64,000 nt of DNA from Dyella choica (GTDB taxonomy: Bacteria; Pseudomonadota; Gammaproteobacteria; Xanthomonadales; Rhodanobacteraceae). How positions within the stretch are numbered: position 1 is the stretch's first letter; the number at the start of each line of letters is the position of its first letter. The translations under genes were made by a program, and so were the position numbers. Below are positions 1,900 to 12,908 of the stretch, piece by piece. The notes beneath the pieces were generated by a model. It did no database searches, was not told the DNA's origin, and saw only the letters and a list, made by a program, of their open reading frames with translations. The stretch spans positions 372,001 to 436,000 of the forward strand of contig NZ_RYYV01000002.1 of assembly GCF_003977665.1 (NCBI RefSeq), in the 5' to 3' direction.

Positions 1900-2817
1900 C
1901 TAGGGCGCGCCTGCGCGCTCAGCGGGAAAACAGTTGCGCAAGAAGCTGTACCAGGATGGCGCCAACGCCGTCGCATGCGACTCGTGCTCGATGACGCGGC
2001 TTGAAAAAAGAAGTCCGTGCAGCGGCTTGCCAGAGGCCAGGCTGATGAACTCGCCAGCCCCCAGCCCCACGAGATTGCGGTAGTAGGAATCGGCGCTGAG
2101 CTCGGACTCGCAGACGGTCAAATGCAACCGGCGACCGGAGTGATCGGCCTGGGCGCGCCATTGGGCCTCGTACTGCTCGAAGACCCTTGAAGTGCCGGAT
2201 CGGATGGCCGGACTGCCCGCACCGATCCGCTGAAAAAGTTCAGAGCGATCGAGCGCTGCATAGATGGAAAAAAGACCGGCGTAGGAATAGCCAAATAGCC
2301 CCGCCGTACGGGCCTTGATCCGGTAGCGCCTGGTCAGCTGTGGATGCAGCTCTTTCGTCAGGAAGGCAAGAAACCGGTCAGCCGCGGGATGCTTGAGGTA
2401 TTGCAGATAAAGCTCAAGCCCGGCTTGATCAAGCATGCCCTGCTCGACCAGGGCTGACATGGCCGCCTCACTGGCGCCTGGCGGGAGCGGCTCGCCGGGA
2501 GGAATCAGATCGCGCGCGCGGACGGCAAGTTGGCGACGGGCGTCTTCCCCCACGTAGCCCACACCTACATGTAGGAATGCCTCGATCGGATGGATGGGAT
2601 CGAATTCCAGCAGGTGAAACACCGCCGTCTGGGGAACGCTTACGTTTCCATCCAGGACATAGATCGCCGGAAAATCGGCATCTGGATGGACCGTGTAGCT
2701 CGCCGGAGTGGTTACCCATACGGCGTGACGCGCCCCCGTGTATTTTGAATCCAGCTCAAAATAACGCGTAAAGGGCAGCGAGGCGGTAAACGGCGGTGAA
2801 AACTCCAGTAGCTCCAT
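1900..2817 (-). CDS. Alpha/beta-hydrolase of the putative esterase (Fes/IroE-like) family, last gene of borosin-like cluster
   Basis: A 305-residue soluble hydrolase. The nucleophile elbow is GYSYAG and the C-terminal EHESHATALAPSW carries the likely catalytic His. This pattern and length fit the siderophore-esterase/enterochelin-esterase-like family. The ATG at 2817 overlaps the TAA stop of the upstream oxygenase (TAATG), so translation is probably coupled; the longer open frame runs back into that gene and is rejected. As the fourth gene of a cluster with an N-methyltransferase and its repeat-bearing substrate, it may release or cleave the modified peptide, or hydrolyse an ester. That role is inference only. 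No signal peptide is visible, so a cytoplasmic location is likely. Confidence 0.85.
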   Translation of the reverse strand: MELLEFSPPFTASLPFTRYFELDSKYTGARHAVWVTTPASYTVHPDADFPAIYVLDGNVSVPQTAVFHLLEFDPIHPIEAFLHVGVGYVGEDARRQLAVRARDLIPPGEPLPPGASEAAMSALVEQGMLDQAGLELYLQYLKHPAADRFLAFLTKELHPQLTRRYRIKARTAGLFGYSYAGLFSIYAALDRSELFQRIGAGSPAIRSGTSRVFEQYEAQWRAQADHSGRRLHLTVCESELSADSYYRNLVGLGAGEFISLASGKPLHGLLFSSRVIEHESHATALAPSWYSFLRNCFPAERAGAP

Positions 2818-3467
2818 TACCGCTGTTTGAACCTGAATCGGATATCGAATGAGATCCGGGTAGACCCGCTGTCGTTGTCCATGGTGCCGTGCATGAGTTC
2901 GCCGCCGCGGAAAATGCACGCCTGGCCATAGGCCATTTGCAGGGGCGCATAATCGCCCCGCCCCACTTCCGATTCGAGATACATGCTGTTGCTACCGGCG
3001 ACCGCTGTAACCGGCAACCACAGATTGACAAGCTCAGCGCGTTGCCCGTATTCGGAATCGACGTGAAAGCGCAAGATGGATTTTGATCCATGAAAATTGA
3101 CGCGTGCCGCCGGGGATGGCTGATACCCCTCGATGGGATAGAGCATTTCCTGGACCGGGCCATACAGCAAGCCGCCGAACAAAGCGTGCGCTGCGACTGA
3201 CAGCGCGTCTTTGAGTTTCTTACTGATCTCCCAGCTGTTTTTCGTGGCTTCATAGTTCGGCACGGGAAGGGTGCCGCCACCGGGATTGAATTGCGGCAGC
3301 AAATGCAAGGTCTCCAACTCGTCCGTGCCCAGGTACTCGGACACCAGGGCGCGAAAATCCCACCGCGAGGTGTCGTAGCTGAAAATAAGCCGATTGGGCA
3401 AAGTGCATGACCCGATCGCGTAGGTTTCGGCACTTGTAAACAAAACGGTATCGGCCAGCCTGTCCAT
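2817..3467 (-). CDS. Putative 2-oxoglutarate/Fe(II)-dependent oxygenase (StrG-like) tailoring enzyme
   Basis: A 216-residue protein. The candidate facial triad is His135-x-Asp137 (RFHVDSEYGQ) and His193 (GGELMHGTMD), with Arg204 eleven residues later as the likely 2-oxoglutarate contact (STRISFDIRF). This spacing is typical of 2OG-Fe(II) oxygenases, and the overall look recalls StrG-type biosynthesis proteins. The ATG at 3467 is chosen because GGGGGA precedes it. The longer frame (start 3545) would translate through a perfect hairpin at 3505-3536, which is better explained as an intergenic terminator/attenuator. It probably hydroxylates or otherwise oxidises the product of the adjacent N-methyltransferase system (inference). 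Its stop overlaps the start of the esterase. Confidence 0.72.
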   Translation of the reverse strand: MDRLADTVLFTSAETYAIGSCTLPNRLIFSYDTSRWDFRALVSEYLGTDELETLHLLPQFNPGGGTLPVPNYEATKNSWEISKKLKDALSVAAHALFGGLLYGPVQEMLYPIEGYQPSPAARVNFHGSKSILRFHVDSEYGQRAELVNLWLPVTAVAGSNSMYLESEVGRGDYAPLQMAYGQACIFRGGELMHGTMDNDSGSTRISFDIRFRFKQR

Positions 3468-3504
3468 GCCTGTCCCCCACACTGAAAAAGCTTGGTGAAC
3501 GATC

Positions 3505-3536
3505 CGAAGGAACGGGCGCCAGCGCCCGTTCCTTCG
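3505..3536 (-). terminator. Perfect 15-bp hairpin between the substrate gene and the tailoring genes
   Basis: Arms 3505-3519 and 3522-3536 are perfectly complementary (CGAAGGAACGGGCGC and its reverse complement) with a 2-nt centre. On the minus strand the stem is followed, after about 14 nt, by CTTTTTC. It lies 15 nt past the stop of the TTEV-repeat protein and ahead of the oxygenase start. It looks like a leaky intrinsic terminator or mRNA-stabilising stem that would lower tailoring-enzyme expression relative to the substrate, as is common in RiPP clusters. Confidence 0.75.
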
Positions 3537-3551
3537 CCGGAGCATGCCCTC

Positions 3552-4475
3552 TCACCGGGTTTCAGAAAGGATGGTGACTTTCTTGACGAGGTCATCGGCA
3601 GCCAGCGCGTCCGCCTCCGGATCGCAAGCAATGGTAGAACCTGGCGATGCCACCGCGTGGGCAACGGCGGCAACGATGGCCTCGACCACTTCAACCACCA
3701 CTTCGGTCACCACTTCCGTAGTCACCTCTGTCGTCACTTCGGTGGTCACTTCCGTCGTGACTTCGGTAGTGACTTCCGTGGTCACTTCAGTGGTGGTCGA
3801 TGATTGCATCATCATCACCAGCAGCACTTGAATAGTGGGCGGGGTGGGTATGGTGGAGGTGGTTCCCGTGACATTGATCTCCGGCGGCTGGTTGCCTCCT
3901 GTCCAGGTCGTGCCGTAGAACGTGAGATCTCCCGAGCTGTCCTTGCTGAATTGCAGGATCATGTTTTGCGGGTTGCCGCCGGTGGTAAACCATGCCAATT
4001 GATCGATCTCGGAGCCCTGGGGCGGTGTCTCGCCGGTATAGTCGTAATTGGAGATCGACGAACCCAGGTAGGTCACGCTGGTTCCATTCACGACCATGGT
4101 GCCGATCGACTGGGTCCCAGGATTGGGATACACGTTGTAAGTACCGTTCCAAGTCGACAGGCTCTGCGTTGCCGTGCTTGCCGAGCCAAAAAGGTTATTG
4201 CTGGTGGGCAAGGGGTCTCCCCCCTGCGCGTAAGTTCCAAGGAAACCGTTCACGCCCGAGCTCTGATAAAAATTCAGGCTGGCGGAACTGGGATTGCCGG
4301 ACGAAGCGCTCCAACTGACGTTGTTTGCGGTGAACTGCGGCGAGTTGATCGCTATGCCATTGACCGTCACCGATTGGGTGGAGACATCGACGACCACTGG
4401 CCCCGGCACGTACGTCGTGCCATCCGGTTGCAGCCAGCTCGTCATGTAGGTTCCGGAATAGTCGATAGTAGCCAT
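3552..4475 (-). CDS. Repeat-bearing substrate protein of a split borosin-like RiPP system (candidate precursor)
   Basis: A 307-residue protein I do not recognise from any named family. Residues 1-100 and 105-210 look like two copies of a beta-rich domain: each has W/Y-x-GTY near its start, V-x-VNG in the middle, then a W-x-x-x-GNP stretch and GT near its end. A Pro/Thr linker leads to a hydrophobic IQVLLVMMMQSS block. Seven tandem TTEV units (residues 228-255) follow, then VTEV, VVEV and a hydrophobic Val/Ala helix, with a charged 28-residue tail. The ATG at 4475 overlaps the methyltransferase stop (TAATG) and has a perfect AAGGAGG site 10 nt upstream. By position and composition it is the likely methylation substrate. 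The Val-rich tract is the obvious candidate core, but which residues are modified is unknown. There is no signal peptide. Confidence 0.8.
   Translation of the reverse strand: MATIDYSGTYMTSWLQPDGTTYVPGPVVVDVSTQSVTVNGIAINSPQFTANNVSWSASSGNPSSASLNFYQSSGVNGFLGTYAQGGDPLPTSNNLFGSASTATQSLSTWNGTYNVYPNPGTQSIGTMVVNGTSVTYLGSSISNYDYTGETPPQGSEIDQLAWFTTGGNPQNMILQFSKDSSGDLTFYGTTWTGGNQPPEINVTGTTSTIPTPPTIQVLLVMMMQSSTTTEVTTEVTTEVTTEVTTEVTTEVTTEVVTEVVVEVVEAIVAAVAHAVASPGSTIACDPEADALAADDLVKKVTILSETR
3687..3794 (-). repeat. Tandem 12-bp repeat encoding TTEV x7, then VTEV and VVEV
   Basis: Nine in-frame 12-nt units lie in the substrate gene. Seven encode TTEV (3711-3794) and two degenerate units encode VTEV and VVEV (3687-3710). 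Thr is encoded by ACC, ACT, ACG and ACA, and Val by GTG and GTC. The units therefore differ at synonymous sites while the amino acids stay fixed. Confidence 0.95.
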
Positions 4476-5779
4476 TACACGTATACCTCCTTGGTGGCTT
4501 GCCGAACGGCCGATGGCGTCGTGGCGTAGCCCTTGTCGATGAGCCATTCCGAAATGTCGCACTCGTAGGCGGCTGGCGACACGTTCCCCTCGTCAAAGGA
4601 TTGCTTGACGGCGTTGAGCTTGTCCCGATAGTCATGGGCAAGCCTGGGGTCAAGCAGGGCGGCGCCTACAAAGCGAGTCGCTTCCTGCAGCGGATCGCGC
4701 TTGAACATCATGCGCGTGACGCCGTGATGCTGAATCAGAAGCTTCCGGCGTTCCTCGGCGCTAAGTCCCGGCCGCGCGTGCACGAAGCCGTTCGGATCGG
4801 CGCGGAAAGCGCGTAAGGCATCCGGGGAAAGCATGAGGTCGAGCAGAGTCTGGTAAAGCGCCTCTGATGCGTGACTGTATTTGTAGCCAGGTGGCGCTTG
4901 ATGTTTCCAGTTGCTGGATCTGGCGCGGGTAGCCAGTTCGGGGTAATTGGCTACATGGCAGATAAGCGGAGAGTTGCGTCCGGGCCCCACCGACTTCAGG
5001 CCAAGCTTCTCGCTCATTTCGGGGTCCGCCGCCTCGGTTCTCGCCGCTTCGATGAAAAAGGTCGAAACGCCCGTCACCTTGCGTGCGATGTCCGGATTCC
5101 TGTATTCGGCCAGCGTGTGGCGATCGATCACCGGATCTCCTGCGAACACATTGGCAACATAGTTGACGACGATGTGATCGGGGCCGTAGATGTCTTCCAG
5201 GTAGTCGAGCAGGACGTTGAACTTGTCATTGACATACCCGCCAAACTTGAAGCCCAGCTCGCCGACGCAACCGACCTGGAAGAGCACGAGGTTGACCGAG
5301 GTATCCACGTTTCGGCGACGGATAAGAAAGTCGGTCGCTTCGTAGATCTGCAGCCCGGGGACGCTGGGGTCGACGCCGAGGTCGGCATAGAGGCAGTCTT
5401 CCGCCGAAACGGCCGGAAGCATTACCGCATCGTAGCCCTCATCCCGCGCAATCTTTATCGCGTTGTGAGATGGGGTGACGAAGACTCCAGGGTGGCCGTA
5501 GAACAGCGCGCAAACATGCTTGCCCGCTCGAACCTCGTCCATGATCCGTTCAATCATCTGGACGTAGGTCATGAGCCGCGCTTTATCGTCGGCGTAATAC
5601 TGGTAGAGATCGAATGAGTTGGGGTTTTGCTGCCGTATCCAGATGTCCGTCACCGGATCGGACGCGGCATAAAGCACGATGTCCGCCTGACGGATATGTG
5701 CCTGCGCCTGCAGGGTGAACTGCCCGACCGCTTTGATGCCGGAACCGATCACGACTAAGCTGCCTTTTTTCTCTGTCAT
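4475..5779 (-). CDS. Borosin-type peptide alpha-N-methyltransferase (tetrapyrrole-methylase fold) with C-terminal helical domain
   Basis: A 434-residue SAM-dependent methyltransferase of the TP-methylase superfamily that methylates backbone amides. Residues 1-250 carry the fold, starting with LVVIGSGI. Tyr59, Tyr62, Arg68, Tyr72 and Tyr94 (in LYQYYADDKARLMTYVQ and FYGHPG) match OphMA Tyr63, Tyr66, Arg72, Tyr76 and Tyr98 at a constant offset of four. Residues 305-357 (LSPDALRAFRADPNGF...) resemble the LigA-like borosin-binding domain that presents substrate in borosins. A second helical segment covers 365-430. Unlike fused fungal borosins, no core follows; the protein ends KEVYV and the substrate is the next gene (TAATG overlap). 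AGGAG lies about 11 nt before the ATG. An in-frame stop lies 31 codons upstream with no start between, fixing the start. Confidence 0.88.
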   Translation of the reverse strand: MTEKKGSLVVIGSGIKAVGQFTLQAQAHIRQADIVLYAASDPVTDIWIRQQNPNSFDLYQYYADDKARLMTYVQMIERIMDEVRAGKHVCALFYGHPGVFVTPSHNAIKIARDEGYDAVMLPAVSAEDCLYADLGVDPSVPGLQIYEATDFLIRRRNVDTSVNLVLFQVGCVGELGFKFGGYVNDKFNVLLDYLEDIYGPDHIVVNYVANVFAGDPVIDRHTLAEYRNPDIARKVTGVSTFFIEAARTEAADPEMSEKLGLKSVGPGRNSPLICHVANYPELATRARSSNWKHQAPPGYKYSHASEALYQTLLDLMLSPDALRAFRADPNGFVHARPGLSAEERRKLLIQHHGVTRMMFKRDPLQEATRFVGAALLDPRLAHDYRDKLNAVKQSFDEGNVSPAAYECDISEWLIDKGYATTPSAVRQATKEVYV

Positions 5780-7489
5780 GCCACCGTGCTCCTTGTCGTA
5801 GGTGTACAGATCCCCATCGAAGCCGGGGGCACCCAGCTTCGCCTGGTCGAATCGTTCGCTTTCCGCGTCCGGTTAGGGACGTACTCACACCATTGCCACG
5901 CTGGCAACCGAATTTTCTTTGCGGGCACTGATGTGCTTAGGCGTGACTGCACATCAAACGTCCGTCCATGATCTTGCATGCCTTCCAGCGCGCCAACTCC
6001 CGCAATGGCGCCCTAGGCGCCCCTGCGAGCTTGCCGCACTGCACGTGCTCGCGCCGCTTCGGTTATCCACCACGCGGTATTGCTATCCCAACTTTGTGCC
6101 GCCAAGGCTTCAATACGCTTGCATCGTGCATCCTCGACCCCCTCCCGGAGATGTCGGATGAGCACGATCGATTCATGGATCGAACCTTGCACAGCCCACC
6201 GGCAACACCGGTGGATTGGCTCGGTGATTCAGGCGATCACAGCTTGAAAGCCACGTCTGCGGATAGGGATCCCCTGTTTGATCCACCACTGTTGCGCCAC
6301 ATCGCTTACCGGGGGCCTAGCCGCGCTGCCGAAAGCAACGCTGTGTCTGGCCGAGCCCGCATATACGCGCTACGCCGCGGGTTCTCCCGCGGCCACGACT
6401 GTGCGACTCCTGACCCGCTTGACTCCTCGCCCAAGATTAAGGGCTTGACGCAGGGGGGCTTGCGCTCGTTTGTGACGAATCGATTTTCTCGTATCTGCTC
6501 GTTAGTCTTGCGTGAAGGCGGAATGAATGCCCCGACAAATATAGGCATGCATGGGCGTCCGCTTGAACCTTCTTTTCCAAAGCTCGATTCATGGAGCGCG
6601 TAGGTAATAAACCCAGCTTTGCGCACGACATCCCAAACCTACGCGCTCGACGCGAAAGCAACGGATGTCGTTTTCATCTGGCTACTCGATACCTTTGTTG
6701 CGTGCAACAGGTTGGCCCCTGCGGCCACAGCGACTATCCATGTCACATTCCGATCACATCCTGCTGTCAGCATCTGGGTCGCGCCCCCGAGAGGCCTGAC
6801 GGCCCTTCGCGCCTTATTGACTTCAATTCAGACGGCGGGCTATGAGCCGTTCGTTGATGAATTCCAAGTCAGTGGGGAAGTTCATCTCACTGGACTTAAT
6901 GGGCGCAAGTGGGGACTTTAGTAGCAGCCGCGACGAGGTGAGCCAGGCTAAGTGCCATCGCCGTCATGGTTTTTTTTGGAATTTGGGTCGCTTCGCTCGC
7001 ATGAATGGGAACTGCCGTATCCCAACTCAAGGTTCGATCAACCGCACGCGTGTGAGGATGAGTCTTGCCTGCCCCGCAAAGGGTCAGTGCCCGTCGATCT
7101 CGGTAAGGGATCAAGCCAAGAAAAGCGCTTTGCGCGCCCGTGGCAAATGCATTGCCGGCTATTCGCCGCCCGCCTTCGCCGGATACTGATGCACTGAGGG
7201 CCACCTCTGCGGCTTCTCAATCAAGCCGGGGCGTGCCTTGACCCGATCCTTTCGCGAACGACCTGCATGCCAGGTCGCGGGTTGGCGTACCCGTCCAGGC
7301 CGTCGCCGTCGTTGCATCAGTCTCTGCGTCATCCATGTCTGCAGGGCAGTCCTGCCGGATGGCCGCGCCCTCACCGGATCTACCGAGTGAATCGAGCCGG
7401 GCCGATCCGAAGGGATGGCTCGGTCCTGCGCGCACCCATTCCAAAAAACCACGCTTCAAATTTCTTTCAAGATTAGGGAGAACCTCAAG
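5780..7489. other. 1.7-kb intergenic stretch without a convincing gene
   Basis: It separates the minus-strand borosin-like cluster from the plus-strand TonB receptor, so it must hold both divergent promoters. Open frames here (for example 5968-6603 plus and 7217-7657 minus) overlap one another on both strands, are rich in Arg, Pro, Cys and Trp, and show no recognisable domain or good ribosome site. No tRNA or repeat was recognised. It could be decayed coding DNA. Confidence 0.6.
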
Positions 7490-10450
7490 ATGTTTCGTGC
7501 GAAGAAGTCCCTGTTGTCCTGTTCGATATTCGCTGCCCTGGGCACGCTTGCCATGACGTCGACCGCTTGCGCTGGCGACATCACCGGCGTCATTACCGAT
7601 CCGGCAAACGGCAAACCCGCGGCCGGCATCGCAGTGCTCAATACGGTCACCGGCCAATCGGTTGAGACCGATGCCTCAGGCCGTTTCCTGATGAACGATC
7701 TCCCTGCGGGCCATTACCTGCTGACCGCAACAACCGCCTCCTCGCACGCACTATCGGCCAGCGTCGATGTTCCCAAGCTAGGGACAGTCACCCCTGCTTT
7801 CAGCGCCGTGGCTACGCTCAACAAAATTTCGGTGGCCGCCAACCGCTACGACGCCAGCCAGATCCAAATGAATGCGGTCAACACCGTCAACGTCCTGTCG
7901 GCCGATGACCTGAAATACACCGCCGTACACAACGTGGCCGAGGCGCTGGCGCTGCTGCCGGGCGTGAATACCTTCAATTCCGGGCAATCGTATTTCGGCG
8001 GTATCGACGGCGCGTCGCGCGGCGAAGGCATGTTCACTTCCGTGCGCGGCCTGAATGCCGAATACAACGTCAACCTGATCAACGGCGTGAGCGTGGCGCA
8101 AGGCATGCCCTACAGCCGTGGCGTGCAGCTGAGCCTGCTGCCGCCATCGGGCATGCAGACCATCGTGCTCAACAAGACCTCCACGGCCGACATGGATGGT
8201 GATGCGATCGGCGGCACCATCGATTTCCGCACTCCCACCGCCTTCGATTTCTCCGCGCCGAGCAGCGGCAGCATCACGGCCAGCGGGCGTATCGAAAGCC
8301 GTGCGCGCGACTATGGCGACAACGGCCTGGGCGGCGGCCTGGCCGGCGAATTCCAGACCAAGTTCGGCGACCAGCACCAGGTCGGCCTCTACGCCAGCGC
8401 GTATTACCAAAGTCGCAACTACGTCAACAGCGAGGCCGCCGGCGCCACCGCGGCATCCGGCGATGGCGCCTGGGCGTTCGCGCATGCCACCGCTGCCGGC
8501 GCCAACGCCGCGGGCTTCGACCCGCAGCGGAACCTGGAAAGCACGGGCATGTACCTGGGCACTTCCTCCGGCTATACCCACCAGTACGGTGGCAATGTCT
8601 CGCTGGACTGGAAGCTGGACGATACCCTCACCGCCTATGCGCGCGCCACTTACGCCTACGCGAAGACCGAGCAGAACACCACTTACCTGCAAATCATTCC
8701 AAAAAACATTTCGTACGCGCAAATTGGCAATACCGGCGTCTACCAGCCCGTCATCGGCCGTATCCCGATGCGCTTCTGGTACGAGACCAATCCGGAAAAG
8801 GCCGATCTGGCCACCTTCCAGGTCGGCGCCGACAAGGTCGTGGGCAGCTGGACCCTTTCGCCCAACCTCTTCTACAGCTTCGGCGACAACGATCGCCCGG
8901 ATCACGTGGAAATCTCCGCGCGCAACGACGAGTACTCATCCGCCGATTTCCCGTATGGCGCCAGCTCGGTGATGATCTACGGCTCCAACGGGTTCGCCTA
9001 TCCGCAACTGACGCCGGCCATGAGCGCACAACTGAGCAGCGTTGCCACCATGTACGCACGGCGTGCCGGCGAACTGACCGAAATCTACAGCGGCCAGGAA
9101 AAGGGCGGCATCAAGTTCGACGCTCGTGACGATTTTGACTCCGGCGCGCTGGCCTCGGTGCAGATGGGCGTGAAATATTCCACCAGCCATCGCGACTTCA
9201 GCAACCGCGACTGGACCACCAGCAAGTACACCGATGGACGCAGCTTCGGTTCGCTGGGCTTGATCGATGGCTATTACTCGTCGGTTTTCCCGGGCATTTA
9301 CCCCTACCCTTCGCCGAAGATGAGCCAGTCGGCGCTCAAGCGCCTGATTGCCGCCAATGTCGTTCCTGGCGACCTTGACACCTGCAGCAATCTCTACGTC
9401 AACAACTGGAATTGCGATACGCAGCGCGCCAACGAAACGGTAAGCGCGGCCTACGCCATGGCGACGTTCAAGTGGGGCAACCTGGAGGTGATACCCGGCA
9501 TGCGCTTCGAGCATACCGATATCCGCAACACGTTCTGGGTCATCCCCCAGGATGCGCAGGGCAACGAGATTCCCGGCTATTTCGCCAAGAATTACACGCA
9601 CTACAACGAACCGCTGCCGAGCGTCTTCGTCAATTACCGGCCGAGCGACAACACGGTGTATCGCGGCGGCATCTGGACCAGCTACACGCGCCCGGCCTTC
9701 ATCCAGCTCGGCGGCGGCTCGCAGATCAGCATCTCGTCCGATGGCGTGACGACGATCAGCGAAGGCAACCCCAACCTCAAGTCGATCTATTCGCTGAACA
9801 TCGACTTCTCGGGCGAGTGGAGCAACCAGCAGGGCGGCCACGCCATGCTGTCGGGCTTCTACAAGAAGCTGTCCCACTACATCTTTGAATCGGGCGGCAA
9901 TCCGGTCAACCCGGCAACGGTGGATGCAGGGGCGATTCAGTACGTGCAGCCGAGGAATGGCGGCGATGGCAAGGTCTACGGCGTCGAAGCGGCTGTGCGC
10001 CAGAAATTCCAGAACTTGCCCACGCCGTTTGATGGCCTCGGCGTTGCCTTCAATGCCACCGGACAAAGGACCTCCGTGAACCTGGGCATGCCCGGCTTCG
10101 AGCACGAGCGCATCCAGAACGCTCCCAATCTGATGGCCAATGCGGAGCTGTTCTATGAAAAGAACGGGCTCTCGATCAACCTCAGCTATCACTACGCCGG
10201 CGCCTACATCTCCACTTACGATTATCTTGGCCAAAATGCTGCCTGGGACGATTTGTGGATCCGGCCGGTCACGCGCCTCGACCTGCATGCCGGTTACGCC
10301 GTCAACGATCACCTGCAGGTCGACATGTCCATCACCAACCTCACGCAGAACTACTCGTATTGGTCGCATATCGGCAAGAACAGCCTGGTCGCTTCGGATA
10401 TCGTCGACTCAGGGATGACCACGCTGCTGACGGCGAAGTATTCGTTCTGA
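7490..10450 (+). CDS. TonB-dependent outer-membrane receptor with N-terminal carboxypeptidase-regulatory-like domain
   Basis: A 986-residue outer-membrane transporter. A signal peptide (MFRAKKSLLSCSIFAALG...ACAG) is followed by a CarboxypepD_reg-like beta domain (about 28-105: GDITGVITDPANGKPAAG). A plug domain follows (about 115-265: TVNVLSADDLKYTAVHNVAEALALLPGV split across the region, and VRGLNAEYNVNLINGV). A long barrel ends in the aromatic TAKYSF expected for BamA-dependent insertion. The ATG at 7490 has GGGAG 9 nt upstream; the longer frame from 7415 adds no signal peptide. Two downstream secreted phosphoesterases suggest it imports a phosphorylated compound, perhaps an inositol phosphate (inference). 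No TonB, ExbB or ExbD lies nearby. Confidence 0.95.
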   Translation: MFRAKKSLLSCSIFAALGTLAMTSTACAGDITGVITDPANGKPAAGIAVLNTVTGQSVETDASGRFLMNDLPAGHYLLTATTASSHALSASVDVPKLGTVTPAFSAVATLNKISVAANRYDASQIQMNAVNTVNVLSADDLKYTAVHNVAEALALLPGVNTFNSGQSYFGGIDGASRGEGMFTSVRGLNAEYNVNLINGVSVAQGMPYSRGVQLSLLPPSGMQTIVLNKTSTADMDGDAIGGTIDFRTPTAFDFSAPSSGSITASGRIESRARDYGDNGLGGGLAGEFQTKFGDQHQVGLYASAYYQSRNYVNSEAAGATAASGDGAWAFAHATAAGANAAGFDPQRNLESTGMYLGTSSGYTHQYGGNVSLDWKLDDTLTAYARATYAYAKTEQNTTYLQIIPKNISYAQIGNTGVYQPVIGRIPMRFWYETNPEKADLATFQVGADKVVGSWTLSPNLFYSFGDNDRPDHVEISARNDEYSSADFPYGASSVMIYGSNGFAYPQLTPAMSAQLSSVATMYARRAGELTEIYSGQEKGGIKFDARDDFDSGALASVQMGVKYSTSHRDFSNRDWTTSKYTDGRSFGSLGLIDGYYSSVFPGIYPYPSPKMSQSALKRLIAANVVPGDLDTCSNLYVNNWNCDTQRANETVSAAYAMATFKWGNLEVIPGMRFEHTDIRNTFWVIPQDAQGNEIPGYFAKNYTHYNEPLPSVFVNYRPSDNTVYRGGIWTSYTRPAFIQLGGGSQISISSDGVTTISEGNPNLKSIYSLNIDFSGEWSNQQGGHAMLSGFYKKLSHYIFESGGNPVNPATVDAGAIQYVQPRNGGDGKVYGVEAAVRQKFQNLPTPFDGLGVAFNATGQRTSVNLGMPGFEHERIQNAPNLMANAELFYEKNGLSINLSYHYAGAYISTYDYLGQNAAWDDLWIRPVTRLDLHAGYAVNDHLQVDMSITNLTQNYSYWSHIGKNSLVASDIVDSGMTTLLTAKYSF

Positions 10451-10515
10451 TCAAAGGTGGAAGGCATGCCCTGCGCGTCGTCGCGCGCGGGGCTTCGATA
10501 GCGAGTGACTGGCTC

Positions 10516-11646
10516 ATGCGAACGAATCAACGCTTTGGCGGTGCGAAATCCATTCTGCTGGCATGCCTGCTTGGCTTCTCAGGCTCGGTGCCCGCAGCGG
10601 CGACGAGCGAATTGCGGCTAAACCAGCTGCAATACCTGGGCAGCCACAACAGTTATCACGCGGGGCTCGCCCCCAGCGAGGCCGTGATCTGGCAGCGCAA
10701 GCACTTCGAGAAGCTGGCGATAGTTGATTACGCGCACCCATCGCTCACCCAACAGCTCGATGACGGCGTGCGGCAAATCGAGCTGGACGTTTATGGCGAC
10801 AGCAAGGGTGGGCGCTATGCACATCCCGCCATCACGGAGCTGGTTAGCGAGGCGGGATTGCCGTCCGATCCGCCCTTCGCCGATCCGGCCACCATGCTGC
10901 GGCCGGGCTACAAGGTGATGCACATCCAGGACCTGGACCAGCGCAGTAATTGCCAACCCTTTACGGCTTGCCTGGCGGAAGTGCGGTCATGGTCGCAGGC
11001 GCACCCGACTCATCTGCCGGTCTTCATCCTGGTCGAAACGGTGCGTTCGAGCCTCGACCAGCCCTTCCCCACGGTCAAGACCGAAGCCTATGACGGCCCC
11101 GCCCTGGATGCGCTGGATGCGGAAATCCGTTCGGTGTTCAAGCGCAAGGAATACATCAGCCCGGACGACGTGCGCGGTCGCTACGCCACCCTGAACCGGG
11201 CCATCCGTGCGCAGGGCTGGCCGACGCTGGCCAGTGTCCGCGGCAAAGTGATCTTTCTGCTGGACCAGCGCTGGGTGGGTCCTGGCTATCTGCAAGGACA
11301 TTCATCCTTGCGCGGAAGAGTGCTGTTTACCAATGCGGCTCCAGGCAGCGACGACGCGGCCTTTACCGAATTGAACGGCGGCGATGCCGCAAGCATCACA
11401 CAGCTGGTCAAACAGGGTTATCTCGTTCGCACACGCACGGATGCCGACCTGCAAGAGCCCAGGCGCAACGATACTCGACGTCGCGACAGCATGATGGAAA
11501 GCGGCGCGCAGCTGCTCAGCACCGACTACCCTGCTGGAGAGCCGGCGACTTCCGGCTATGCGGTAGGTTTTTCCAATCACCTGCCCGCACGCTGCAATCC
11601 GCAAACGGCGCCGGCAGCCTGTCAGAACAGCGAGCTTTCACCGTGA
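10516..11646 (+). CDS. Secreted calcium-dependent phosphoinositide phospholipase C-like protein
   Basis: A 376-residue protein with an N-terminal signal peptide (hydrophobic ILLACLLGFSGSVPAAA, cleavage likely near residue 33). The body shows PI-PLC X-box features: LGSHNSYHAG (first catalytic His), QIELDVYGD (acidic metal ligands), KVMHIQDLD, and a C-terminal DYPAGEP/SGYAVGF segment typical of bacterial Ca2+-dependent PI-PLC proteins. The ATG at 10516 is chosen for the signal peptide; the frame is open back into the TonB receptor gene. It follows the receptor by 65 nt and overlaps the phosphatase start by 4 nt, so the three genes are probably one operon. It likely releases phosphorylated head groups in the periplasm or outside the cell. 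Confidence 0.86.
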   Translation: MRTNQRFGGAKSILLACLLGFSGSVPAAATSELRLNQLQYLGSHNSYHAGLAPSEAVIWQRKHFEKLAIVDYAHPSLTQQLDDGVRQIELDVYGDSKGGRYAHPAITELVSEAGLPSDPPFADPATMLRPGYKVMHIQDLDQRSNCQPFTACLAEVRSWSQAHPTHLPVFILVETVRSSLDQPFPTVKTEAYDGPALDALDAEIRSVFKRKEYISPDDVRGRYATLNRAIRAQGWPTLASVRGKVIFLLDQRWVGPGYLQGHSSLRGRVLFTNAAPGSDDAAFTELNGGDAASITQLVKQGYLVRTRTDADLQEPRRNDTRRRDSMMESGAQLLSTDYPAGEPATSGYAVGFSNHLPARCNPQTAPAACQNSELSP

Positions 11647-12908
11647 GTCCCATGGCCACTCTACCGATTTCAGGGCGACCGCTTGCTCGTGCCGCCAGCC
11701 GATGGCTCGTGCTGATAGCGATGATCCTGCCTGTGTTCCCCGCACAAGCCGATATGCCGTTGCAGCTTGAGCGCGTGGTGCTGCTCTATCGCCATGGCGT
11801 GCGCACTCCCTTGCCGGGGGAAATCCAGTTGGACGAGGTGTCCGGCAAGCCATGGCCGACCTGGCGGCAAGCACCCAGTGAATTGACCCCGCACGGCGCA
11901 GCCGGCGCACGCTTGATGGGGCAGTATGACCGCCAGCGTCTCGCCGCAGCCGGCTTGTTTTCCGTACACGGCTGCCCTACGCCGTCACAGCTGTCGTTCT
12001 GGGCCAACACCGACCAGCGCACCATCGCCAGTGCGCAAGCGCTTGCGCAGGGGTTCGCGCCAGGCTGCCCCATCCAGGTCGGCCATTTGCCGCAGGGAAG
12101 CGAAGATCCCTTGTTCCATCCCATGGAGGCAGGCGCCACGGCATGGAACGCGCACGATGCGGTCACTTCCATCCTGGCCAGCACCGGCGAGCCGGATGCC
12201 TTGACGGAACCGCATGCCGATGCGCTCCAGTTCATGATGACCGTAATGGGTTGCGATCAACGCCACCATCCGGATTGGTGCGAACCGAGCCATTGGCATG
12301 GAACATTGGCGGCACCCACGTCTTCCGAGCGTATGACGCTGAGCGGACCGATTGCCACGACATCCGGCACGGCCGAATCCATCCTCATGGCCTATGCCGA
12401 AGGATTCCCCAACCGCGCGGTGGGCTGGGGCCGGATCAAGCCCGGACAGCTTGAATCCCTTTCGCAGCTCCATGCGCTGCTGTTCGATCTCTACGCGCGA
12501 CCTGACTACATGGCCGAGCGTACCGCCTCGGTGCTCAGCCATCGCATCCTTGGCGTGCTGCAGGACGAGCAAGCGCCACGACTGAACGTATTCGTGGGCA
12601 GCGACAACAACATCGTCGCCCTTGCCTCGGTCCTGCATCTGCATTTCAAAATGCCAAGCTACGCGCAAGATGATCCGCCCATTGGCGGAGCGCTGGGCAT
12701 CGAACTGTGGCGAGAGCCTGGCGGTTCGCAGCGCTACGTGCGCGTCTTTTATCAAGCGCAGAGCCTTCCGCAATTGCGCGCCCTGTCCCACTCACCACCG
12801 GCCACGGTGAGCCTGCTTCCTCCGGCGTGCGTCTCGAACAAAAATGGGCTATGCCGGTTTGCGGATATTCTCCCTCTTCTTCAGCGCGCCGAGGCTCGCG
12901 CGCGTTAG
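11643..12908 (+). CDS. Histidine acid phosphatase (phytase/AppA-like), secreted
   Basis: A 421-residue periplasmic phosphatase. A signal peptide (AASRWLVLIAMILPVFPAQA) precedes the phosphohistidine motif YRHGVRTP. The GTG start at 11643 overlaps the upstream TGA (GTGA), so translation is coupled; an ATG three codons on (11652) is possible. In this family the C-terminal proton-donor motif is normally HD(T/S/N)N. Here the matching segment reads FVGSDNNIVAL, with Ser in place of His while the Asp is kept. Cys residues are spread as in disulfide-bonded AppA relatives. With the PI-PLC and TonB receptor it forms a plausible phytate or phosphoinositide scavenging unit. Activity is uncertain because of the H-to-S change. 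Confidence 0.88.
   Translation: MSPMATLPISGRPLARAASRWLVLIAMILPVFPAQADMPLQLERVVLLYRHGVRTPLPGEIQLDEVSGKPWPTWRQAPSELTPHGAAGARLMGQYDRQRLAAAGLFSVHGCPTPSQLSFWANTDQRTIASAQALAQGFAPGCPIQVGHLPQGSEDPLFHPMEAGATAWNAHDAVTSILASTGEPDALTEPHADALQFMMTVMGCDQRHHPDWCEPSHWHGTLAAPTSSERMTLSGPIATTSGTAESILMAYAEGFPNRAVGWGRIKPGQLESLSQLHALLFDLYARPDYMAERTASVLSHRILGVLQDEQAPRLNVFVGSDNNIVALASVLHLHFKMPSYAQDDPPIGGALGIELWREPGGSQRYVRVFYQAQSLPQLRALSHSPPATVSLLPPACVSNKNGLCRFADILPLLQRAEARAR

Follow-up and report, generated by a model that had tools for sequence, protein, structure and literature searches.

The cluster described here comprises four genes on the minus strand, read from 5779 to 1900 of the window, i.e. of the whole 64,000-nucleotide stretch of DNA that was analyzed. 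They encode a methyltransferase, a protein of 307 residues, a 2OG oxygenase-like protein and an esterase-family protein. All features named in a first-pass annotation of this DNA were recovered, on the minus strand, from the sequence and its open reading frames where they had been placed. They are given below together with those defined in this work.

4475..5779, minus strand: borosin-type peptide backbone N-methyltransferase, 434 aa, with MT domain, borosin-binding domain (BBD or clasp) and helical domain H
5000..5779, minus strand: MT domain, residues 1-260, by phmmer alignment to dbOphM and structure match to OphA
4694..4885, minus strand: borosin-binding (clasp) domain, residues 299-362, by profile A7 and helices in the model
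4478..4693, minus strand: helical domain H, residues 363-434, by profile matches and helices in the model
3552..4475, minus strand: putative precursor or substrate, 307 aa, by sequence and orthologues
4179..4466, minus strand: beta-unit 1 of the putative substrate, by the beta-unit profile
3870..4157, minus strand: beta-unit 2 of the putative substrate, by the beta-unit profile
3801..3842, minus strand: short hydrophobic block PPTIQVLLVMMMQS of the putative substrate, by sequence
3711..3794, minus strand: run of seven TTEV units, putative core, by repeat analysis and orthologue comparison
3648..3710, minus strand: Val-rich continuation VTEVVVEVVEAIVAAVAHAVA, possibly part of the core, by orthologue comparison
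3555..3647, minus strand: C-terminal tail SPGST..., perhaps a follower, by orthologue comparison
2817..3545, minus strand: putative 2OG-Fe(II) oxygenase, 242 aa as called, with H161, D163, H219 and R230
1900..2820, minus strand: esterase-family alpha/beta hydrolase (PF00756), by Pfam match

The substrate gene is coupled to the enzyme gene, its ATG overlapping the enzyme's TAA as TAATG. The 307-residue protein carries the hydrophobic block, the seven TTEV units and then the Val-rich units; a Pfam search with it gave no match. Two beta-rich domains had been proposed for this protein, and two matches to our beta-unit profile were found, the term 'beta-rich' being a reading of the sequence. The esterase predicted downstream matches PF00756 with E 5.2e-13. 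Elsewhere in the window, minus-strand genes at 13000-36488 account for part of an extracellular contractile injection system (eCIS): a tape measure protein (PF19268, 3.8e-88), proteins of sheath and baseplate type, an eCIS core domain (PF13699) and a nuclease-like protein whose match is just under the Pfam cut-off. Positions 7415-12908 encode a TonB-dependent receptor, a PF16670 protein of the Ca2+-dependent phosphoinositide phospholipase C family and a histidine phosphatase, which may together form an operon for scavenging phosphate or phytate.

The phmmer alignment, the clasp profile and the structure search agree on the borosin-family identity of the enzyme. The enzyme has Tyr59, Tyr62, Arg68, Tyr72 and Tyr94, all displaced by the same 4 positions from their dbOphM equivalents in the phmmer alignment, and we take their OphMA counterparts to be Tyr63, Tyr66, Arg72, Tyr76 and Tyr98. 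Across 23 aligned sequences including that of the window, Y62, R68, Y72 and Y94 are invariant and Y59 occurs in at least 90%. Residues 3-260 of the enzyme model, a coverage corresponding to the MT domain, match the OphA structure in the structure search, which did not place the enzyme with the porphyrin methylases. The helical clasp is present by sequence profile, and the binding domain lies on the enzyme as had been proposed: profile A7 matches OphMA 319-379 (best 4e-12) and SonA (best 7e-4). In the structure model, helices within residues 306-359 make up the clasp region and helices 363-433 form domain H, an extra helical domain after the BBD which goes beyond the first-pass annotation. The enzyme is an alpha-N-methyltransferase of the OphMA/SonM borosin family that has the active-site Tyr/Arg set and carries the borosin-binding domain itself.

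The best solved relatives of the enzyme by sequence and, for the MT domain, by fold are the fungal fused proteins OphMA/dbOphMA, in which MT and clasp follow in the same order. Their core is fused to the enzyme, whereas that of the window would lie on the next protein, behind the beta-units. Separate genes for enzyme and substrate, as in the window, are found in Shewanella SonM/SonA (type IV). SonM has 263 aa and no clasp, its precursor has about 75 aa, and the BBD is carried by SonA (PMC8429565); in the window, in contrast, a related BBD sits on the enzyme. The SonM residues Y58, R67, Y71 and Y93 (PMC8429565) appear to correspond to active-site residues of the window enzyme, a pairing made in this analysis. 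Within the window's own family, matches to the enzyme at 1e-20 or better occur in 162 of 233 genomes, and the substrate was found in one of 197, the window's own. The source genome encodes three further borosin-type methyltransferases (G000:C56:20635-21312, C11:42376-43002 and C23:6416-7105) adjoined by putative precursors of 94, 127 and 98 aa, respectively; another neighbouring protein appears by eye to be secreted, and these loci are probably of the common split borosin kind.

Furthermore, relatives were collected by a contig scan, of which the best 80 of at least 531 confirmed loci were kept. Among these 80, the whole arrangement recurs in three: an alphaproteobacterial MAG (L056), Sphingomonas sp. 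ATCC 31555 (L057) and Burkholderia arboris LMG 24066 (L058), with enzymes 81%, 66% and 66% identical to that of the window, respectively. B. arboris MEC_B345 (L052) is a further record of the same species as L058. The orthologous substrates have 306-309 residues, with starts chosen here, and six to eight exact TTEV units, and a 2OG oxygenase follows each substrate in L056, L057 and L058. The enzymes of the window and these three loci form one clade (SH-aLRT 100) in a tree of 87 rows built by a quick method, in which L052 is not included. Of the loci fetched, L056, the nearest relative, is the only one with an esterase next to the cluster. The Sphingomonas cluster is followed, at 10093-12714 of L057, by a sugar/MFS-type transporter and an alanine racemase, possibly by chance.

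The beta-unit profile detected 66 units in 39 ORFs of 39 loci, most of these ORFs being the enzymes of relatives. The modules follow the order MT, BBD, H, beta-units, hydrophobic segment and acidic repeat, and this chain is uncut in L055 and L059. In L060 and L064 the break falls between BBD and H, with H near the substrate N terminus; in the window clade it separates H from the first beta-unit, and in L061 it follows the last beta-unit. Domain H is internal in the fused L059; first-round matches of its profile are weak (6e-4 for L064, 8e-4 to 1.4e-3 for L060 and L059), and those in L055 and L061 appear after iteration only and prove little by themselves. That uncut relatives share the module order of the window had not been part of the first-pass account. 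L053, L054, L063, L065 and others pair a fused MT...beta enzyme with a separate VDVDIDVD-type repeat protein, mostly of 530-1090 residues. In L059 (6422-9424, Erwinia phyllosphaerae), all modules lie in one 1000-residue ORF with AEVAEV repeats near the N terminus and at the C terminus. L080 has a 94-residue DVDVDIDI-repeat ORF (9787-10071) between fused enzyme and 2OG oxygenase; it is the smallest acidic-repeat partner listed by our detector and a handy test substrate.

As to its class, the cluster is a split borosin as had been annotated, with the enzyme separate from a large putative substrate and a stop codon between enzyme and repeat. The main novelty claim made for it, an unprecedented architecture, was too strong, since Class 2, in which one protein combines MT and BBD and a second one carries the core, is already in print (PMC11395268). 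The window agrees with that class, with MT and BBD together on the enzyme and the core presumably on the 307-residue protein. The same source recounts borosin types 0-X and adds type XI (PMC11395268). With its core not fused and the stop codon in between, the cluster falls outside types I-III, and with an enzyme of 434 aa that has a clasp and a substrate of 307 aa it falls outside type IV. Alternating acidic residues are reported for type III cores (PMC11395268), and the putative core of the window resembles, by description, those of the type III proteins KchMA and AboMA in alternating acidic and other residues; KchMA and AboMA are fused, whereas in the window a gene break separates domain H from the first beta-unit. 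We see about even chances that the cluster has no architectural novelty and is an ordinary member of a type already defined, probably type VII or one related to type VIII. The printed Class 2 fits such a reading, and so do the recovery by a type III probe of methyltransferases belonging to types VII and VIII (PMC11395268) and the VD-repeat relatives, e.g. L063, whose roughly 175 residues after the repeat (by eye) agree with the about 160 residues after the core given as the mark of type VIII (PMC11395268). Only 52 residues follow the last TTEV in the window substrate, however, so that by this printed mark it differs from type VIII.

The 2OG oxygenase proposed for the third gene has HxD...H, the metal triad of such enzymes, and the Arg that binds 2OG in them. 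Its match to NCBIfam TIGR04324 (E 3.5e-10) is below the curated cut-off, and that to Pfam PhyH reaches 0.052 only; Met27, at 3467, is an alternative start. Conservation over 30 ORFs from 29 loci is 97% for H161 and D163 and 100% for H219 and R230. The association of this family with the beta-units was counted over 85 loci (the window and 84 relatives, L052-L135) at detection thresholds set in this analysis, 80 of the counted loci having been drawn by likeness to the enzyme group of the window; L001-L051 were left out because their flanks are only about 1.5 kb. A member of the oxygenase family lies in reach in 28 of 39 beta-unit clusters as compared to 1 of 46 loci without beta-units, and an acidic-repeat ORF in 31 of 39 as compared to 0 of 46. 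For the 67 loci with adequate flanks the counts are 24/33 vs 1/34 and 27/33 vs 0/34, respectively. Fisher P values over all 85 loci (1.7e-12 for the oxygenase, 4e-16 for the acidic repeat) ignore kinship and overstate the association since the loci are related. The repeat detector misses some cases, such as an upstream ORF with VDVVDLDV in L072 and an acidic tail in L055. The 11 beta-unit clusters without an oxygenase in reach include L060 and L064, the two other loci with TTDV/TTEV substrates, both on short contigs. This wide tie goes beyond the first-pass annotation, and no description of an oxygenase tied to acidic-repeat borosins was found in the parts of the literature searched, which excluded Imani 2022, Cho 2022 and Lee 2024.

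The seven TTEV units form a single run, residues 228-255 of the substrate, which TRF reports as a 12-base tandem array at 3699-3788 or 3711-3794. Compared with the three orthologues, its identity is 0.92-0.96 at pN 0.02-0.08 and pS 0.62-0.80. Since a short stretch picked by its motif was compared, this conservation follows in part from the definition, unlike the occurrence of the run in all four lineages. For the beta-units the corresponding identity is 0.50-0.76, for the Val-rich part 0.47-0.67 and for the C-terminal tail (residues 271-307) 0.22-0.57. The TTEV repeat is under selection. It is rather unlikely that the core consists of the hydrophobic block (residues 212-225) only, with the TTEV run as an unmodified charged spacer or solubility tail. 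Such a block precedes the repeat in all four aligned loci, and the borosin methyltransferases of Quijano et al. acted on primarily hydrophobic cores (PMC11285071). However, the block is among the least conserved parts, with its region (residues 208-226) at 0.26-0.74 identity (35% to L057, 26% to L058 and 74% to L056), so that its character is kept and its sequence is not, whereas the repeat is nearly constant despite the high synonymous divergence, and an acidic repeat lies nearby or in the same ORF in most beta-unit clusters, as counted above. We consider it improbable that the enzyme has another target and the 307-residue protein a structural or surface role. Its acidic tract and beta-rich units would suit such a role, and the VD repeat of L063 weakly resembles regions of Sdr adhesins (2.4e-6, well short of the curated cut-off and probably through composition only); the TAATG overlap, a one-base overlap of the corresponding genes at 8305 in L056, the unchanged order of enzyme, substrate and 2OG oxygenase in the window, L056, L057, L058 and also L052, the union of beta-units, acidic repeat and enzyme in one polypeptide in L055 and L059 and an N terminus in which no signal sequence was seen by eye all argue against it. 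That the TTEV array, although a twelve-base tandem repeat, is a functionless product of slippage is barely conceivable, since all seven units are distinct in DNA and differ at 58% of third positions compared (positions 1 and 2 never differ by construction, the units having been picked by exact motif), which argues against recent slippage, and since the same run stands in three other lineages with the pN and pS values given above.

In 31 substrate blocks, acid-to-acid distances of 2 (566), 4 (120) and 6 (19) stand against odd distances of 1 (6), 3 (37), 5 (8) and 7 (2), and at least 90% of the acids share one parity in 22 of the 31. From the window's clade only the window itself passes this cut, because the cut runs into the Val-rich end; with a narrower cut, every acid falls on the majority parity in the window, L052, L056, L057 and L058. 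In an extended strand the acids would thus line one face, and Val/Ile/Thr the opposite one. In many VD-type loci, the VD repeat is broken by a short hydrophobic insert (FLAVV, FIAVV, ALVVV etc.), in L063/L065 and others at about substrate residues 354-432, across which the acid spacing mostly stays even, L069 and L081 being exceptions.

Overall, we regard it as likely that the cluster encodes a split borosin pathway of the Class 2 arrangement, in which the enzyme methylates the tract of the 307-residue protein and the oxygenase then acts. The enzyme, by its homology, would be an OphMA-like dimer with its own binding domain, and the separate 307-residue protein would be its substrate, given that the two genes are coupled in an operon and occur together and that the protein is homologous to the C-terminal half of fused relatives. 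Holding or presenting the substrate is the probable role of the beta-units. The enzyme would thread the hydrophobic block and the TTEV/Val tract and methylate backbone nitrogens in the N-to-C direction, as reported for L63 and I65 of SonA (PMC8429565). By analogy with SonA, AboMA and KchMA, methylation would fall mostly on the uncharged Thr and Val. KchMA receives up to 11 methylations at residues 742-796, mostly on nonpolar residues and on some Asp, acidic residues are not methylated in the engineered KchMA-TEV, and AboMA methylates non-charged residues only (PMC11395268). Against methylation of the tract speaks that the TTEV units contain Thr and Glu, whereas KchMA-TEV leaves acidic residues and AboMA charged ones unmethylated. 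The 2OG oxygenase may then hydroxylate the same tract or help methylation along. In the pythonamide system, a proteusin, backbone N-methylation of Val by EreM is aided by the Fe(II)/2OG oxygenase EreI, which EreM needs for later methylations (PMC9505594, PMC11285071); EreM is FkbM-like and said to be outside the borosin family (PMC11285071), unlike the window enzyme. The esterase would be a local extra. Repeated N-methylation of the TTEV tract, followed by hydroxylation, is by these analogies the most likely outcome; the parts of the literature searched contained no report of methylation of the window protein or its orthologues.

As far as checked, the shared module order with the gene break at differing points and the link of a 2OG oxygenase family to beta-unit clusters are new. 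For the broad family we tentatively suggest one colinear chain, MT-BBD-H-beta-units-hydrophobic segment-acidic repeat, divided between enzyme and substrate at points that vary with the lineage. Instead of a small macrocycle, the product might be a long beta-strand polymer, doubly modified and blocked along one edge, in which acids point to one side and Val/Ile/Thr to the opposite side, with N-methyl groups on alternate residues and hydroxyl groups added by the linked 2OG oxygenase. While the general kind is known, the site of the gene cut, the repeat and the partner oxygenase make the cluster a useful variant, a small gene set whose probable function is to methylate a separate protein on its backbone, along a short repeat. 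The homologous clusters with their differing cut points are a natural test of what covalent linkage contributes to iterative backbone N-methylation, and from the linked oxygenase a second modification would be expected in acidic repeat cores. An enzyme acting in trans and walking along a long repeat would be a tool to make N-methylated peptides.
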